Part shown: positions 14,409 to 20,341 of the stretch, one piece after another
Numbering within the stretch: position 1 is the first letter of the stretch
How the letters are laid out: every line of letters starts with the position of its first letter
NCBI RefSeq assembly: GCF_015732185.1
Contig: NZ_WIQM01000008.1
Coordinates: forward strand, 310,001 to 374,000
Direction: 5' to 3'
DNA from: Pectinatus haikarae
GTDB taxonomy: Bacteria > Bacillota > Negativicutes > Selenomonadales > Selenomonadaceae
DNA length: 64,000 bases
Notes under the pieces: generated by a model
Told to the model about the DNA's origin: nothing
Seen by the model: the letters and a program-made list of their open reading frames with translations, nothing else
The model's database searches: none
Translations under genes and position numbers: made by a program

Positions 14409-15278
14409 TCAGAGGTCATTTTCATAATATTTTATTAAACTTTGTGTGCCTTTTTCGCCCATACCTTTTTCTTCCAGTTCTTTTGCTTCCACTAAAACTT
14501 GTTTCAGAACAGGCATGTTTACGGAGAAAATATCACCGGTCTCAATACCGATATTCATGTCTTTTATAAAATGCTTCAGCATGAAACCCGGTTCAAAATT
14601 TCCTTTCAAAGCATTGACAACTACATTTGACATCTGGAAACTGCCGGCAGCCCCTTTGGAAATGGCAGAGAACACTTTATCGGCATCAAGTCCTGAGGCC
14701 TGCGCATATGAAAATGCTTCACACGCTCCGGCAAGTGCACCTGCTATGGCGATTTGGTTGCAGGCTTTTGTTTTTTGTCCGGCACCGGCACTGCCTTCAT
14801 AAATAATGTTGCTGCCCATTTTTGCCAAAAGGGGTTTTACTGCCAGAAAAGCAGCTTCATCACCGCCTGCCAAAATACAAAGTGATGCCTTTTGTGCGCC
14901 TGTATCACCGCCGGTAACAGGCGCGTCAATGGCGTAAATGCCTTTTTTTTGCGCTGCTTCGTATATTTTTTGTGCCAATAATGGAGATGAAGTTGTCATA
15001 TCTATGACATATGTTCCTTTTTCTGCATTTGCCAAAATACCGTTGCTTCCCAAATAACTTTCCTCCACATCTTTGGGATAGCCGACTATGCTTATGACTG
15101 CGTCCTGTCCGCGGGCGCACTCACCGGCACTGTCACACCATTTTGCTCCTTTTGCCAGCAATCCGGCGGCTTTTTCTTTGGTCCTGTTGTAAACGCTGAG
15201 TTCATATCCTGCTTCCAATAAATGTCCGGCCATTGCGCTGCCCATTATTCCGGTGCCGATAAAACCGATTTTTTTCAT
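14409..15278 (-). CDS. Beta-hydroxyacid dehydrogenase (tartronate semialdehyde reductase / 3-hydroxyisobutyrate dehydrogenase family)
   Basis: A 289-residue NAD(P)-dependent dehydrogenase. It starts with the Rossmann motif IGFIGTGIMGSAMAGHL, contains the substrate-binding DAPVTGGDTGA, and carries the catalytic lysine in GAGQKTKACNQ, all diagnostic of this family. Members reduce tartronate semialdehyde to glycerate, oxidise 3-hydroxyisobutyrate, or act on succinic semialdehyde; the sequence alone does not separate these. The ATG at 15278 has a GGAGGA site. It is transcribed singly and divergently from acetolactate synthase. Confidence 0.83.
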   Translation of the reverse strand: MKKIGFIGTGIMGSAMAGHLLEAGYELSVYNRTKEKAAGLLAKGAKWCDSAGECARGQDAVISIVGYPKDVEESYLGSNGILANAEKGTYVIDMTTSSPLLAQKIYEAAQKKGIYAIDAPVTGGDTGAQKASLCILAGGDEAAFLAVKPLLAKMGSNIIYEGSAGAGQKTKACNQIAIAGALAGACEAFSYAQASGLDADKVFSAISKGAAGSFQMSNVVVNALKGNFEPGFMLKHFIKDMNIGIETGDIFSVNMPVLKQVLVEAKELEEKGMGEKGTQSLIKYYENDL

Positions 15279-15389
15279 TTGTCTATCCTCCTGCGTATAT
15301 TTTTTTTATTATAACATAAATAAAATTCTTGGTTGATCTATAATTCTTGATTTATTTGCAAAATAATACTGTTTTGTTGTAAATTTTTA

Positions 15390-15418
15390 TTGATAAATTT
15401 TTGCTTAGTAGGTATTAT
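15390..15418 (+). promoter_or_regulatory. Promoter of the acetolactate synthase gene
   Basis: TTGATA (15390-15395) and TATTAT (15413-15418) with a 17-base spacer. The leader is about 40 bases with no T-box or attenuator visible. Confidence 0.55.
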
Positions 15419-15466
15419 TGAACATGACATTAATTATATTTTGCAGGAGGCTTTGCTAAAAATACT

Positions 15467-17125
15467 ATGTGTGAAAAAAGTAAGCGGTGTACCGCTGATT
15501 TACTGGTAGAATGTCTGGAAGAAGAAGGCGTAAAATATATTTTCGGTATTCCGGGTGAAGAAAATCTGGCTATTATGCGTGCGCTTGAAAATTCTAAGAT
15601 ACAGTTTATCACTGTCCGTCATGAACAAGGCGCTGCCTTTATGGCCGACGTTTATGGAAGACTTACGGGAAAGGCCGGTGTATGCCTTGCTACATTGGGG
15701 CCGGGTGCAACGAATCTCGTAACAGGTGTTGCCGATGCCGATAGTGACGGAGCCCCGCTTGTTGCAATAACGGGGCAGGTAGGTACTGAACGGATGCACA
15801 TTACCTCACACCAATTTCTTGACTTAGTGAAGATGTTTGAACCGATAACCCGACGTACAAAAATGGTGGTACGCCCCGACACGGTGAATGAAATAGTTCG
15901 TCTGGCCTTTAAATATGCGGAACGCGAAAAGCCGGGCGCATGTCATATAGATCTGCCGGTTAATATTGGCATGATGTCTATAGATAATTCGGAACGTCCG
16001 CTGCAAAAACAATATCCGATAAAAGAATATGCTTCTGTTCATACGCTTGACGAAGCAGCAGAAATGATTTCCTATGCTAAAAGTCCGGTTATTCTCGCCG
16101 GCAGCGGAGTTATTCGCTCTCATGCGGCAAAGGAATTGACGGCGTTTGCGGAAAAACTGAAAATACCGGTAATAAATACTATGATGGCAAAAGGGGCCAT
16201 TCCTTTTGATAACAAGTATGCAATGTGGACAATAGGCATTCCTTTTTCTGATTATCAAAATAAATTATTGGAAAGAGCCAGCTTGGTAATAGCCGTCGGT
16301 TACGATATTATTGAATATGCACCGTCAAAATGGAATAAGCGCGGTGATGTGGATATAATTCATATAGATGCGGCTTCCGCCGATATCAATAAGTTGTATC
16401 AGGCCAATATAGAAGTAGTCGGTGATATACCCGACTCATTAAAACGTATAATGCAGAGGACTGCACGCCTTCAGGAACCCAAGGAAGCCTTGGCAATGCG
16501 TGAAAAAATGGTTGCAGAACACGAGAGCTACGCTGCTGATAAAGCTTTTCCTATGAAGCCGCAGCGCATACTCAACGATGTACGAAAAATCATGGGACCT
16601 GATGATATCGTTATTTCAGACGTAGGGGCGAATAAAGTCTGGATAGCTCGTCATTACAACTGCTATAAACCGAATACCTGTATTATTTCCAATGGATTTG
16701 CTACGATGGGCATAGCCGTGCCGGGAGCTATAGCTGCAAAACTCGTCAATCCTGATAAAAAAATATTGGCAATAACCGGTGACGGCGGTTTTATGATGAA
16801 TTGTCAAGAGTTTGAAACGGCTATACGTCTTGGCACAAATTTTGTGACGCTGATATTCAACGACTGCAGCTATGGTCTCATAAAGTGGAAACAGGAAGAT
16901 CATTATAAACATAGTTATGGTGTTGATTTTACAAATCCTGATTTTGTAAAATTTGCTGAGAGCATGCATGCCGCAGGTTTTCGCATCAAAAAGGCTGAAG
17001 AGCTTATTCCGACACTGGAAAAAGCTTTCAGCCTGGATGTACCGGCTATCATTGACTGCCAGGTCGATTATAGTGAAAACATGAAGCTGACAGAACATTT
17101 GCAGCAGCTTATGCAGGGAATTTAA
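15467..17125 (+). CDS. alsS: Acetolactate synthase, catabolic type
   Basis: A 552-residue thiamine diphosphate enzyme. It has FGIPGEENL at the start, the catalytic glutamate in VRHEQGAAFMADVYGRLTG, and the cofactor-binding ITGDGGFMMN...FND block. It condenses two pyruvates to 2-acetolactate. There is no adjacent small regulatory subunit (IlvN) and the overall sequence resembles AlsS/BudB, so a fermentative, acid-relieving role is more likely than valine synthesis. No acetolactate decarboxylase gene is next to it. The ribosome site AGGAGG lies 16 bases before the ATG, rather far. A terminator follows closely. Confidence 0.88.
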   Translation: MCEKSKRCTADLLVECLEEEGVKYIFGIPGEENLAIMRALENSKIQFITVRHEQGAAFMADVYGRLTGKAGVCLATLGPGATNLVTGVADADSDGAPLVAITGQVGTERMHITSHQFLDLVKMFEPITRRTKMVVRPDTVNEIVRLAFKYAEREKPGACHIDLPVNIGMMSIDNSERPLQKQYPIKEYASVHTLDEAAEMISYAKSPVILAGSGVIRSHAAKELTAFAEKLKIPVINTMMAKGAIPFDNKYAMWTIGIPFSDYQNKLLERASLVIAVGYDIIEYAPSKWNKRGDVDIIHIDAASADINKLYQANIEVVGDIPDSLKRIMQRTARLQEPKEALAMREKMVAEHESYAADKAFPMKPQRILNDVRKIMGPDDIVISDVGANKVWIARHYNCYKPNTCIISNGFATMGIAVPGAIAAKLVNPDKKILAITGDGGFMMNCQEFETAIRLGTNFVTLIFNDCSYGLIKWKQEDHYKHSYGVDFTNPDFVKFAESMHAAGFRIKKAEELIPTLEKAFSLDVPAIIDCQVDYSENMKLTEHLQQLMQGI

Positions 17126-17130
17126 TAGGA

Positions 17131-17163
17131 GGCAGGCCTGGTTTTCCATCAGGCCTGTTTCTC
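17131..17163 (+). terminator. Terminator of the acetolactate synthase gene
   Basis: CAGGCCTG at 17133-17140 pairs with CAGGCCTG at 17150-17157, followed by TTTCTC. Confidence 0.65.
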
Positions 17164-17262
17164 AATCTAGCAGAGAATAACAAAATATTCTGCTCAGTGG
17201 CTGTATACAGCCGAGATGCAGGTCAGAAAATCGTAAGAAAAATAATTTAAGGTAAAAGTGCT

Positions 17263-17294
17263 TAAAAAAGAAAAACCTTGCTGTGAAAGCAAGG
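17263..17294 (-). terminator. Second terminator of the cobalamin-riboswitch RNA
   Basis: CCTTGCT/AGCAAGG hairpin (17276-17294) followed on the minus strand by a long U run (complement of 17263-17275). Beyond it, 17199-17212 is a perfect 14-base palindrome and 17170-17195 a weaker hairpin; no gene is seen there. Confidence 0.8.
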
Positions 17295-17380
17295 CCCTGC
17301 CAGTGCAGTGTTTAAGAGGAAGTAAAACTCTATGAGCAATCCCCAGTGTATTAGCTGAAGATACAAAGGGGCTGAAACCA

Positions 17381-17420
17381 AAATAAAAACCCTCTTCTGA
17401 GCGAACGCAAAGAAGAGGGT
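17381..17420 (-). terminator. First terminator of the cobalamin-riboswitch RNA
   Basis: Arms 17411-17420 and 17389-17398 (ACCCTCTTCT/AGAAGAGGGT on the minus strand) enclose a small GCG-TTC-GC stem. They are followed by a U-rich run complementary to 17381-17389. It is about 90 bases past the aptamer and is the likely expression platform. Confidence 0.85.
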
Positions 17421-17507
17421 AAACTATACCAAATTTATTTATGCTATAATCTAATCTCCTGCCCATCGCTCGCGGGTACTATACAGTTATGTATAACGGT
17501 GACTGTC

Positions 17508-17673
17508 AATCAGGTAGTTCTCCTGGCTTCACATCATTGCTTCGCCGCTCCTTCTCAGAATAAAATTCCAATGGATAGATTGCGGGGTTGCTCCGTGTTA
17601 CAGTGGCGGGACCGCACCGGACTATCAAATACAATTACCGGTTTCCCTATTAAGTCATTTCTGACGCCTGATT
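17508..17673 (-). promoter_or_regulatory. Cobalamin riboswitch aptamer
   Basis: Read on the minus strand, the conserved blocks occur in order: AGGGAAACCGGT, AGTCCGGTGCGGTCCCGCCA with CTGTAAC (the B12 box region), and GAAGCCAGGAGAACTACCTG near the 3' side. The closing P1 helix is AATCAGG (from 17673) with CCTGATT (to 17508). All the invariant parts of the cobalamin aptamer are present. Confidence 0.92.
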
Positions 17674-17694
17674 CTCTTTTATTCAATTGCATAT

Positions 17695-17723
17695 ATAATA
17701 TCACCTGATAAATTTAATGTCAA
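17695..17723 (-). promoter_or_regulatory. Promoter of the orphan cobalamin-riboswitch RNA
   Basis: On the minus strand TTGACA (17723-17718) and TATTAT (17700-17695) are separated by exactly 17 bases. It lies back-to-back with the thioredoxin promoter. Confidence 0.7.
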
Positions 17724-17725
17724 CC

Positions 17726-17754
17726 TTGCAATAATTTTTGATAAAGGGTATATT
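17726..17754 (+). promoter_or_regulatory. Promoter of the thioredoxin gene
   Basis: TTGCAA (17726-17731), 17-base spacer, TATATT (17749-17754), 45 bases before the ATG. Confidence 0.6.
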
Positions 17755-17798
17755 AGATACATCATGCCGCCGCAGATGTTGGTGAAAGGAAGAAAAAT

Positions 17799-18113
17799 AT
17801 GCCACAGGTATATACTGAACAGAATTTTGAAAAAGAAGTTTTGCAGTCGCCGATACCGGTGCTGGTGCATTTTGGCGCTGAATGGTGTGTGCCGTGCCAG
17901 CAATTTGCCCCTATAATAGATGAAATGGAAGAAAATGCATCAGGTGAATATAAAGTAGGAAGTGTCAACGTGGACAGATCACGTGAACTGATAGAAAAAT
18001 ACAATGTAACAATGATCCCCACCATTATTATATTTAAAAATGGCCGATCTGCCGCTCAAATAACAGGAGCCGTTTCAAGGGAGAATTTATGTCATATGAT
18101 GCTGAATGACTGA
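17799..18113 (+). CDS. Thioredoxin
   Basis: A 104-residue thioredoxin-fold protein. The active site is WCVPC (Cys30 and Cys33) with Val in place of the usual Gly, and the cis-proline loop is MIPT. The length and the order of elements (FGAEWC, INVDRS-like VNVDRS, IPTIIIFKNG) are those of ordinary cytosolic thioredoxins. It has no signal peptide. It reduces protein disulfides using thioredoxin reductase, which is not in this window. The ribosome site is GAAAGGAAG. Monocistronic. Confidence 0.85.
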   Translation: MPQVYTEQNFEKEVLQSPIPVLVHFGAEWCVPCQQFAPIIDEMEENASGEYKVGSVNVDRSRELIEKYNVTMIPTIIIFKNGRSAAQITGAVSRENLCHMMLND

Positions 18114-18209
18114 TTTTCCAGAAAATTTAAGGTGTAAACAAAAGCAATTTACGCAGATAATATATTATTTTCAACATTCTTTGGAATAAAGTGGGATGCC
18201 CGAATAGAT

Positions 18210-18246
18210 AACTCTATTGCTTAAGAAATAGGGTTTTATTTTATTT
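18210..18246 (+). terminator. Terminator after the thioredoxin gene
   Basis: AACTCTATT (18210-18218) pairs with AATAGGGTT (18227-18235, one G-U pair), followed by TTATTTTATTT. Confidence 0.6.
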
Positions 18247-18289
18247 CTTGCGAGACATTAAAATTTAAATATAAAGGGGTGCAGCTGCT

Positions 18290-19159
18290 ATGAAAATAAT
18301 CGATGCACATATGCATTTTTCATCCGTAGGAAACTTTGCTGAAACTGCTGCCAACATAAACTGCAAATGTGATATCCCTACGTTAAAAAGGGAGTTCGAC
18401 AAATGCGGAGTGGTTCTGGGTGTGGGCATGGGAGTCGATTCGTCCGATATAGTGGACGGCAGCATCAATCCGCAAATTATAACACATGGACTTGAGCAAT
18501 TTCCTCCTTTTATGGCGCAATGCCTTGGCATAGCACCGGATATGATAACTGCTGAGAACCGTGAACAAACATTGGCTGCTTATGAAAAACTGTTGCAGGA
18601 GCCGACAAGTCTTGGCTTTAAAATTTATGCGGGCTATCAGCATTATTATGTCGACGATGCAGTCTACCATCCATTTTTCAGACTGGCGGAAAAATACAAC
18701 GTACCCGTTGTAATTCATACAGGTGATACTGCCAGCAGCCATGGCAAGCTTAAATATTCACACCCGCTGACTGTGGATGAAGCTGCTGTCGATTTCCCCA
18801 ACGTCCATTTTGTCATGGCACATTGCGGCAACCCCTGGATAATTGATGCCGCTGAAGTAGCTATGAAAAATCCAAATGTTTATATTGACTTATCCGGGCT
18901 GGCAGAAGGGCTTATCAATGCAGAAATCTTTTTGTCTGAGGGAGCCGGGTATATAGAGCATTTGAAGACATGGCTGGGCTATATGAATCATTATGATAAA
19001 CTTATGTATGGATCAGACTGGCCGCTTGTTGATATGAAAAATTATATTGAGGTAATAAAAGCCGTTATTCCTGAGAAATATCACCGGGCTGTGTTTTATG
19101 ATAATGCCGTGCGGATTTTTACCAAACTGCAAAATTGTTTGTCGAGGCAAAATGATTGA
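18290..19159 (+). CDS. Amidohydrolase family protein (Amidohydro_2 type)
   Basis: A 289-residue metal-dependent hydrolase or decarboxylase of the PF04909 type. Metal ligands can be seen: IDAHMHF near the N-terminus (His7 and His9), VIHTGDTAS, MAHCGNPW, and the final aspartate in YGSDWPL. The family includes decarboxylases and lactone hydrolases with very different substrates, so no specific reaction is assigned. The ribosome site AGGGGTG precedes the ATG. No operon partner: a thioredoxin gene with its own terminator lies upstream and a tRNA gene downstream. Confidence 0.75.
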   Translation: MKIIDAHMHFSSVGNFAETAANINCKCDIPTLKREFDKCGVVLGVGMGVDSSDIVDGSINPQIITHGLEQFPPFMAQCLGIAPDMITAENREQTLAAYEKLLQEPTSLGFKIYAGYQHYYVDDAVYHPFFRLAEKYNVPVVIHTGDTASSHGKLKYSHPLTVDEAAVDFPNVHFVMAHCGNPWIIDAAEVAMKNPNVYIDLSGLAEGLINAEIFLSEGAGYIEHLKTWLGYMNHYDKLMYGSDWPLVDMKNYIEVIKAVIPEKYHRAVFYDNAVRIFTKLQNCLSRQND

Positions 19160-19263
19160 CTGTCTTGTATTGGCAATGACCTTATTGGTGGTTTATATGC
19201 TATGGATACTATATAAAAGAATTGCATCAGCAAAAATATTGTGGTAAAATAGTTGAGTATCCC

Positions 19264-19337
19264 GCGGGCATAGTTTATTGGTAGAATGGCTGCTTCCCAA
19301 GCAGCAGAGGGCGGTTCGATTCCGCTTGCCCGCTCCA
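19264..19337 (+). tRNA. tRNA-Gly (anticodon CCC)
   Basis: The acceptor stem GCGGGCA pairs with TGCCCGC, the anticodon loop is TTCCCAA (anticodon CCC), the T-arm is CGGTTCGATTCCG, and CCA is encoded at 19335-19337. Confidence 0.95.
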
Positions 19338-19350
19338 GAATAGAGTTGTT

Positions 19351-19379
19351 AGAGTTGCTTTTTTAGGCAGCTCTTTTTA
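19351..19379 (+). terminator. Terminator after tRNA-Gly
   Basis: AGAGTTGC (19351-19358) pairs with GCAGCTCT (19367-19374, one G-U pair), followed by TTTTTATTTT. The next 290 bases before rpe hold no supported gene, only a loose GGCA/TGCC hairpin near 19470-19502 and the repeats at 19606-19639. Confidence 0.65.
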
Positions 19380-19605
19380 TTTTGCATAAATGCTTTTGTT
19401 GTTCAGGCGGCTCCCTTTCATTTTCCCGTTTAGCAGAGCTTTGAGGGAAAATACAGGGAGACATTAGGCAATTTCCTTTTTATGTGCAGGAAAATACTGC
19501 CAAAGGAGATATTTGAACAGCCGGCAATTATATGATAATATAATTGTAAATTCACCTGTGCGGCTATTTGCATAGGCCGATAAATAAAATGATATTGTAA
19601 GAGTA

Positions 19606-19639
19606 TTATGATACAGTGGATAATTTTTATGATACAGTG
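19606..19639 (+). repeat. Two 13-base direct repeats upstream of rpe
   Basis: TTATGATACAGTG occurs at 19606-19618 and again at 19627-19639, exactly 21 bases apart (two helical turns). They lie in the leader of the epimerase gene. They could be tandem regulator sites or duplicated -10 regions (TATGAT). Confidence 0.5.
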
Positions 19640-19672
19640 ATTAATGTGACTGTATACAAGAGGAGAAATAGT

Positions 19673-20341
19673 ATGAAAATAGTTTTATCACCTTCAATTT
19701 TATCGGCTGACTTTTCCTGTCTGGCCGATGATGTGCAAAGATTGGAAAACAGCGGCATCATGGATATACATCTTGATATTATGGATGGTCATTTTGTAAA
19801 GAATATCACGTTTGGCGTGGGGACGATCAAATCTCTCCGACCGCATACAAAGGCAAATTTTGACGCACATTTGATGGTGACTGACCCCGATGAGCTTTTG
19901 GCTGGACTTGCTGACGCCGGCGTCAACACGGTTACGGTCCATAAGGAAGCATGCGTTCACTTGTATCATACTTTGGAAACTATTAAAACTTTGGGAATGG
20001 ACGGCGGTGTGGTCCTGAATCCTGCCACCGATTATGAATCCTTAAAATATGTAGCGCAGGATGGCCTGCTTAAGAAGGTTTTGATTATGTCAGTTGAGCC
20101 TGGATTTGGCGGACAGTCATATCTGCCGATGAGTACAAGAAAAATCGCGGATCTGGTAAAATGGCGGGAAGAAAATAACTTTGAATTTATCATACAAGTT
20201 GATGGCGGCGTAAATATCAATAATATAAAAACTATTATTGATGCCGGAGCAACAGATATTGTTATTGGATCTGCCATGTTCAAAGACCGCCAGATCGAAA
20301 AAAATGTGGAAGCTTTCCGCAAGGCCGCCGATTTACGCTGA
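19673..20341 (+). CDS. rpe: Ribulose-phosphate 3-epimerase
   Basis: A 222-residue TIM-barrel epimerase. Motifs are LSPSILSADF, HLDIMDGHFVKNITFG (metal-binding His and Asp), MSVEPGFGGQ, QVDGGVN and the C-terminal phosphate site IVIGSAMF. It interconverts ribulose-5-phosphate and xylulose-5-phosphate in the pentose phosphate pathway. Start: the frame is open to 19616, but the ATG at 19673 has the ribosome site AGAGGAG and matches the usual N-terminus. A second, more divergent epimerase lies in the PTS cluster at 26566. Confidence 0.92.
   Translation: MKIVLSPSILSADFSCLADDVQRLENSGIMDIHLDIMDGHFVKNITFGVGTIKSLRPHTKANFDAHLMVTDPDELLAGLADAGVNTVTVHKEACVHLYHTLETIKTLGMDGGVVLNPATDYESLKYVAQDGLLKKVLIMSVEPGFGGQSYLPMSTRKIADLVKWREENNFEFIIQVDGGVNINNIKTIIDAGATDIVIGSAMFKDRQIEKNVEAFRKAADLR

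Follow-up and report, generated by a model that had tools for sequence, protein, structure and literature searches.

Which RNA does a cobalamin riboswitch control when no gene follows it? The question is raised by a locus on the minus strand of the window, a stretch of 64,000 nucleotides from Pectinatus haikarae, in which a cobalamin aptamer is succeeded by two terminators and then by the 3' end of the convergent gene alsS. The initial annotation had offered two answers, a B12-controlled small RNA or readthrough giving antisense RNA against alsS. To our knowledge, only a few cases of riboswitch-controlled regulatory RNAs are known, all of them Gram-positive. We consider it likely that the locus is a trans-encoded sRNA, controlled by a cobalamin riboswitch, which represses the translation of methylmalonyl-CoA mutase.

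The riboswitch unit and its conservation in Pectinatus

The elements that had been listed for the locus, i.e., a minus-strand promoter with 17-base spacing, a complete cobalamin aptamer, a first and a second terminator and the lack of a downstream gene, were all recovered by computation (Table 1). With TG preceding the -10 element the promoter was the best of 23 scored in a scan of positions 15000-20000, and TTGACA followed by TG-TATTAT or TG-TATCAT was kept in all five Pectinatus genomes. The aptamer score exceeds the RF00174 gathering score of 31.5 bits, which places it in this riboswitch class. T1 was seen by folding and was not listed by a simple terminator scan of positions 15000-20000; T2 (stem 17298-17272) was the top-ranked site of the terminator scan. 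The minimum-energy fold of P. frisingensis contained an alternative L13 pairing in place of T1. The sole long mechanical frame on the minus strand after the aptamer (17194-17466, 90 aa) had neither a Pfam match nor a counterpart in relatives, and a coding frame at this place was rejected on these grounds. For the part after T1, no Rfam 15 family exceeded the gathering cut-off in a search of the window and 50 loci, which returned only RF00174 and tRNA.

Table 1. Features of the riboswitch locus and its neighbors (window positions).
Feature	Position	Strand	Basis or remark
Promoter: TTGACA, 17-nt spacer, extended -10 TATTAT	17695..17723	-	motif scan, 11 of 12
Cobalamin riboswitch aptamer	17496..17686	-	RF00174, 98.3 bits, E 2.5e-23, full length
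Putative P13/L13 stem-loop of expression platform	17461..17478	-	GCGAGCG can pair with CGUUCGC (T1 loop)
T1, riboswitch intrinsic terminator	17380..17420	-	minimum-energy fold, 4/5 species
sRNA hairpin I, loop CUUCAGCUA	17341..17371	-	folding and covariation
Anti-start block UGCUCAUAG, complementary to CUAUGAGCA at mcmA start	17330..17338	-	invariant, 5/5 Pectinatus
Anti-Shine-Dalgarno block UUCCUCUU	17314..17321	-	pairs with mcmA Shine-Dalgarno in co-folds
sRNA hairpin II, CUGC-4-GCAG	17297..17308	-	kept, 5/5 Pectinatus
T2, sRNA-ending terminator with U tract	17264..17294	-	first of 9 terminator-like sites (scan)
alsS, convergent neighbor, outside unit	15467..17125	+	TPP enzyme domains
Thioredoxin gene, divergent neighbor, outside unit	17799..18113	+	PF00085

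The stem-loop between the aptamer and T1, which we take to be P13/L13, carries GCGAGCG. Its complement was found in the T1 loop of four of the five Pectinatus genomes, with a duplex energy of about -13 kcal/mol; P. brassicae lacks it (-6.8). Pairing of GCGAGCG with CGUUCGC of the T1 loop would make an antiterminator possible and may have a switching role.

The aptamer-terminator-terminator unit was present in all five Pectinatus genomes. Its 501 nt matched each of the four other genomes of the genus, which include P. brassicae, P. cerevisiiphilus, and P. frisingensis, with 76-87% identity. The layout of the segment between T1 and T2 was the same in the five genomes: a hairpin, an open strand (UGCUCAUAG...UUCCUCU), a second hairpin, and T2. 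Three pairs of hairpin I were found to be changed on both sides across the five genomes. The pairs of hairpin II are invariant and thus provide no covariation, while T2 is kept in the five genomes, likewise with invariant pairs. Mean pairwise identity was 87% for the core, 83% for the aptamer, and 96% for the open strand, and fell to 29% in the 100 nt past T2; the third codon positions of alsS, taken for comparison, were 52% identical. P. brassicae has about 70 additional bases between T1 and the core. Conservation of the unit strongly supports the earlier reading as a B12-controlled small RNA, which would be a stand-alone transcript.

The neighboring genes are less constant. P. brassicae carries a different gene in place of the upstream thioredoxin gene and retains the unit. 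The proposal that the unit shares its upstream region with a thioredoxin gene thus holds as a divergent arrangement in P. haikarae but is not essential. Downstream, alsS adjoins the unit in four of the five Pectinatus genomes, and in P. frisingensis another gene lies between them.

Eight cobalamin riboswitches were found in the genome of P. haikarae. Others precede genes for a mutase (mutA), PepSY, CbiK-like, TonB-dependent receptor, and lactate/malate dehydrogenase-like proteins, as judged by eye. Two of the eight are near-identical and lie 3 kb apart (L002 and L003; G000:C3:126745-126919 and 129949-130123). One of this pair is located before a PepSY-like gene while L003 has no frame for 492 nt, and the pair is perhaps a duplicated remnant. 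Another riboswitch (L008; G000:C3:54818-54995) lies 55 nt before the lactate/malate-dehydrogenase-like gene, where B12 may also set an alternative fermentation route, perhaps at translation.

Complementarity to the start of mcmA

In all five Pectinatus genomes the open strand was found to be complementary to the Shine-Dalgarno sequence and start codon of the split mcmA in the propionate operon, so that the complement of the strand reads as a ribosome-binding site and a start (AAGAGGAA...CTATGAGC). In P. haikarae mcmA is located on contig C11 and the sRNA unit on C4. The gene encodes 550 aa matching the N-terminal domain of methylmalonyl-CoA mutase. It is followed by genes for the B12-binding part, MeaB, and epimerase (NCBIfam, all over the cut-off) and by mmdA (just under the cut-off), and the frame before it has a below-cut-off match to part of succinate CoA-transferase.

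The five mcmA orthologs ranked 1, 4, 5, 7, and 9 in a duplex scan of 261 gene starts, a biased choice drawn from the window and from the neighborhoods of unit, riboswitch, ANTAR, and B12-protein loci. Among 397 starts sampled from the P. haikarae genome, one reached the energy of its own mcmA (-25.1). When the strand was shuffled, 1 of 2000 shuffles gave an equally good mean energy, and 9 of 2000 did so when the anti-Shine-Dalgarno block was kept and its flanks were shuffled. The pattern GAGGAN{4,14}CTATGAG, composed after the duplex scan of the 261 starts, occurred at 21 sites in the five whole genomes compared to 7 for the reversed control. Five of these sites were the sRNA locus itself and five the mcmA start; among the 11 others from the five genomes no gene start common to several species was seen. 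In co-folds of the core with the mcmA leader, hairpins I and II and T2 remained intact in five of five cases, and 21-29 intermolecular pairs were predicted at -15 to -21 kcal/mol.

The start of aprB was likewise picked up by a second pattern in four of the five Pectinatus genomes (29 sites in all, compared to 1 for the reversed control), and since this start fits the strand, other targets are possible. Further candidates are korD in one genome and hcp in one, and rplJ-like starts scored high. The aprB-like starts (L235, L219, L210, and L232) lie within a sulfate-assimilation operon. A search of the P. haikarae genome for long complementarity of 17 bases gave 30 sites compared to 80 for the reversed control; two of the sites (L064 and L068) precede possible gene starts. 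Four near-identical starts, MSRKNESTQK(A/T)AMREMMKNY, were also seen in this genome (L211, L216, L231, and L234) and are probably mobile-element copies.

The putative sRNA and its candidate mutase target in other genera

A covariance model of the Pectinatus core matched Pectinatus alone (5 of 189 genomes of the order), an exact pattern was found in three named Pectinatus only, and a shorter one had no match in viral contigs. A genus-specific RNA was nevertheless rejected, because gene-less riboswitch loci in other genera carry the same layout. Among 60 riboswitch loci from ten other genomes, a crude rule left seven without a near gene; six of these were read, of which four carried the anti-start strand and two did not. 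The four have T1, a hairpin with UUCAGC in the loop, CAUUGCUCA(U), and T2, and CAUUGCUCA(U) is the complement of the mcmA start AUGAGCAAUG. Of the 79 distinct aptamers followed by 300 nt or more of sequence, 18 had the anti-start strand, a number counted by hand among 25 raw TGCTCA matches.

A search for a 21-base motif, with at most three mismatches allowed, gave matches in 117 of the 189 genomes, which belong to 17 of the 30 genera (5 matches for the reversed control); this count includes false sites, since an Rfam check of 50 motif sites gave RF00174 at 33 of 34 sites with at most two mismatches and at 4 of 16 sites with three. The motif also misses true cases and catches none of the five Pectinatus sRNAs; its sole match in the P. 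haikarae genome (L351) has no aptamer nearby. In one genome (G006; L020) the sRNA unit was seen by eye to lie directly before a CbiK-like frame, so that in some genomes the sRNA may serve as leader to a B12 gene. In another genome (G197:C8) the motif occurs twice (L359 and L360), with about 15 kb in between, and one occurrence lacks an aptamer over the cut-off.

A hairpin directly before the anti-start strand was found in all 32 genomes folded, and in 30 of them at most 10 of 200 mononucleotide shuffles were as stable. RNAalifold gave no consensus pair for an alignment of 31 of the 32 sequences, from which G072 was left out, and single-sequence folds were used in its place.

The fit between sRNA and mcmA was assessed in 32 genomes from 17 genera for which the sequences of sRNA and target were both available. 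As TGCTCA served to locate the sRNAs, invariance of this block outside Pectinatus is given by construction, and agreement with AUGAGCA is partly due to selection. Two blocks make up the pairing. Besides the anti-start block there is a second one, which in many genera is UUUCAUUCAGUUCUAU or part of it and matches the bases immediately before the Shine-Dalgarno sequence; in Pectinatus and genus g7 it matches the Shine-Dalgarno sequence itself. In 24 of the 32 genomes the pairing was better than at least 297 of 300 shuffles, a result made too favorable by the use of TGCTCA in choosing the sRNAs. Five genomes were weaker in this respect (G026, G012, G016, G163, and G036; 6-18 of 300), and three genomes of one genus (G168, G171, and G009) were no better than chance (105, 121, and 71 of 300).

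Re-pairing of sRNAs and targets between genomes is free of the TGCTCA selection, although it makes no correction for base composition shared within a genome. Cognate pairs had a mean of -25.3 kcal/mol compared to -21.6 for re-paired ones, and none of 20,000 re-pairings was as good, neither for the full set nor with one genome for each of the 17 genera. On average, the complementarity is thus a better fit within a genome than between genomes. Among the 17 genera, each sRNA being compared with all targets, only four had their cognate target as the best, and in four it ranked 9-17.

G197 and G035 show a compensatory change: the mRNA has AGCAAC and the sRNA GUUGCU, where many others have AGCAAU and AUUGCU. 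By eye, the start AUGAGCAACG of these two genomes has the synonymous codon AAC, and the facing sRNA base is G and not A. In G010 and G090, which belong to one genus, the flanks of the Shine-Dalgarno sequence differ and the sRNA was seen by eye to differ to match. G014 has a different start, and the complementary stretch was seen by eye to lie immediately ahead of its Shine-Dalgarno sequence. Other changes of the start were not followed: sRNAs with AAAUGCUC or GUUUGCUC face AGCACG (G019, G192, G028, and G201), and an sRNA with CACUGCUC faces AGCAAUG. The start AUGAGCAAU is common to much of the family, and part of the complementarity therefore needs no co-evolution. The mcmA starts from 26 non-Pectinatus genomes paired nearly as well with the Pectinatus strand (-21.4 against -23.0), which would speak against co-evolution but is partly explained by the other genera having their own sRNA.

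Three genomes sampled from genus g12 (G015, G112, and G123) had no close match to mcmA, and the starts of their remaining mutase read AUGAGCGAUG, AUGAGCGAUA, and AUGAGCAAUC, respectively. G123 and G015 have a riboswitch sRNA that is complementary to the start of this mutA, with -24.0 for G123 (7 of 500 shuffles) and -26.8 for G015 (0 of 500). The motif match of G112 has no aptamer. In 11 mcmA-bearing genomes the mutA start was read and was found to differ in ten (e.g., ATGAAAGAT, ATGAATGAG, and ATGGAAGAG). In G033 (L318) mutA also starts with AUGAGCAAUG; both mcmA and mutA of this genome start with UAUGAGCAAUG, so both mutases fit the sRNA there.

The mutAB genes have a cobalamin riboswitch of their own (G000:C1:138185-138364; L001, L122, and L124-L126), with two successive terminators before the gene that are conserved in the four Pectinatus aligned. 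This does not obviously fit a simple logic of no B12, no mutase. In some other genera two terminator-like sites were also seen before a mutA-like frame.

Proposed mechanism, alternative explanations and relation to known systems

In the mechanism that we propose, transcription would end at T1 when cobalamin is bound, leaving only the aptamer leader. Without cobalamin the polymerase would pass T1, and the sRNA would be made to T2. The open strand after hairpin I is predicted to pair with the start codon of the mutase mRNA and, in Pectinatus, with its Shine-Dalgarno sequence; in many other genera the second contact would be with the bases that immediately precede the Shine-Dalgarno sequence. This pairing would block translation of the B12-dependent mutase, and a cell short of B12 would cease to make an enzyme whose cofactor is missing. 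Hfq, which is encoded in all five Pectinatus genomes (PF17209), may help. With respect to what is expected of a trans-acting sRNA, Hfq is encoded and T2 is U-tailed, and a cognate fit was found on average, with 8 of the 32 genomes showing little or none. We read the locus as a B12 off-switch, with the sRNA presumably made at low B12, by analogy to EutX, Rli55, and AspocR, in which B12 gives early termination. Withholding a B12 enzyme when B12 is lacking would follow the logic of these known cases.

Four other explanations were weighed. The core might be a genuine sRNA whose main targets are other mRNAs starting with AUGAGCA, mcmA being one of many or a coincidence. The good scores of the aprB, korD, hcp, and rplJ-like starts speak for this; however, the two-block pattern matches no gene start other than that of mcmA throughout the five Pectinatus, cognate pairs beat all re-pairings on average, the second block varies along with the mcmA leader in many genera, and in two g12 genomes it is the other mutase gene that is matched. 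We find this explanation unlikely. The RNA might instead sequester an ANTAR antiterminator protein in the manner of EutX and Rli55, with which it has the front end of B12 riboswitch, terminator, and downstream RNA in common. All five Pectinatus genomes encode an ANTAR response regulator and a HisKA_2 kinase beside a gene of the pyruvate-carboxylase/oxaloacetate-decarboxylase type. An ANTAR site is defined by dual hairpins with hexaloops A1/G4, as given in excerpts of the source (PMC3369931), and these are absent from the sRNA core. The motif scan gave two single matches in the core, in two species and at different places, and its other matches were in the aptamer or T1. With the regulator present in the genus but the RNA motif missing, a sponge was rejected and appears very improbable. 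At L111-L115 a kinase-like frame and the ANTAR regulator lie just before that gene, the P. haikarae copy having been examined with Pfam.

Readthrough might also control alsS, by antisense RNA as in the other answer of the initial annotation or by collision, which would be in keeping with the convergent position of alsS beside the unit in four of five Pectinatus, although it is one gene further away in P. frisingensis. This idea found no support: T2 intervenes and is conserved, identity is lost past T2, a gene intervenes in P. frisingensis, and the corresponding unit of G006 precedes a CbiK-like frame, as judged by eye. The complementarity of the RNA to a distant gene for the B12-dependent methylmalonyl-CoA mutase also disfavors it, and we regard it as extremely unlikely. 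That the locus is the remnant of an ordinary riboswitch which has lost its gene has next to no probability. L003, the near copy of L002 with its distant next frame, may be such a remnant, but the sequence past T1 ranks with the best-conserved DNA of the present locus, hairpin I was kept through double changes, and the same unit recurs in many genera.

An sRNA directed at the mutase start, which we favor, combines features of several known RNAs. Excerpts of the published accounts describe EutX of Enterococcus faecalis and Rli55 of Listeria as ncRNAs with a B12 riboswitch that sequester EutV; B12 leads to an early end, and the long RNA shuts the B12-dependent pathway in the absence of B12 (PMC5821096; PMC8079631). 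Like these, the present locus has its own promoter, a B12 aptamer, a terminator, and a longer non-coding RNA with its own end, known here from sequence. Unlike them it has no ANTAR dual hairpin but a predicted base pairing with the mRNA of the enzyme itself, and it concerns the propionate pathway in a different bacterial group. In AspocR of Listeria, a B12 riboswitch controls a 1400 nt antisense RNA of pocR, and what is excerpted of its description presents it as an RNA switched off by B12 and thought to pair with mRNA, probably at translation initiation (PMC8079631). The present RNA would act in the same way. It differs in being about 110 nt long after T1, in lying on another contig than its target and not opposite the target gene, in a short two-block pairing, and in having a B12 enzyme and not a regulator as candidate target. 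The locus has the front end of EutX and Rli55 and presumably the action of AspocR, and is a member of neither.

The leader of the SAM riboswitch SreA of Listeria acts in trans on prfA, according to excerpts of its account (PMC8079631). The predicted pairing of a riboswitch-derived RNA in trans with an mRNA leader is similar, but SreA is the terminated riboswitch RNA, and the terminated form would here lack the pairing strand. In Veillonella a cobalamin riboswitch is reported upstream of a mutase gene, a cis arrangement (PMC7160235). The logic of sparing a cofactor is also that of the locus under study. RyhB is made when iron is scarce and represses enzymes that need it; it is controlled by a repressor protein, whereas control would here be by a riboswitch in the same transcript.

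Searches of the open-paper literature found no description of this RNA. We think it likely that it represents a new RNA family present in much of one Gram-negative family of the Firmicutes, that the match between sRNA and mutase has been kept across genera, partly by compensatory changes, and has moved from mcmA to mutA, and that B12 sets the flow to propionate. If so, this would be a widespread riboswitch-controlled RNA that base-pairs with the mRNA of the sensed cofactor's own enzyme, and it would offer a natural series of sRNA-target pairs. 'Orphan' riboswitches would have to be read as possible sRNA genes, and in these bacteria the supply of B12 would be tied directly to the formation of propionate.
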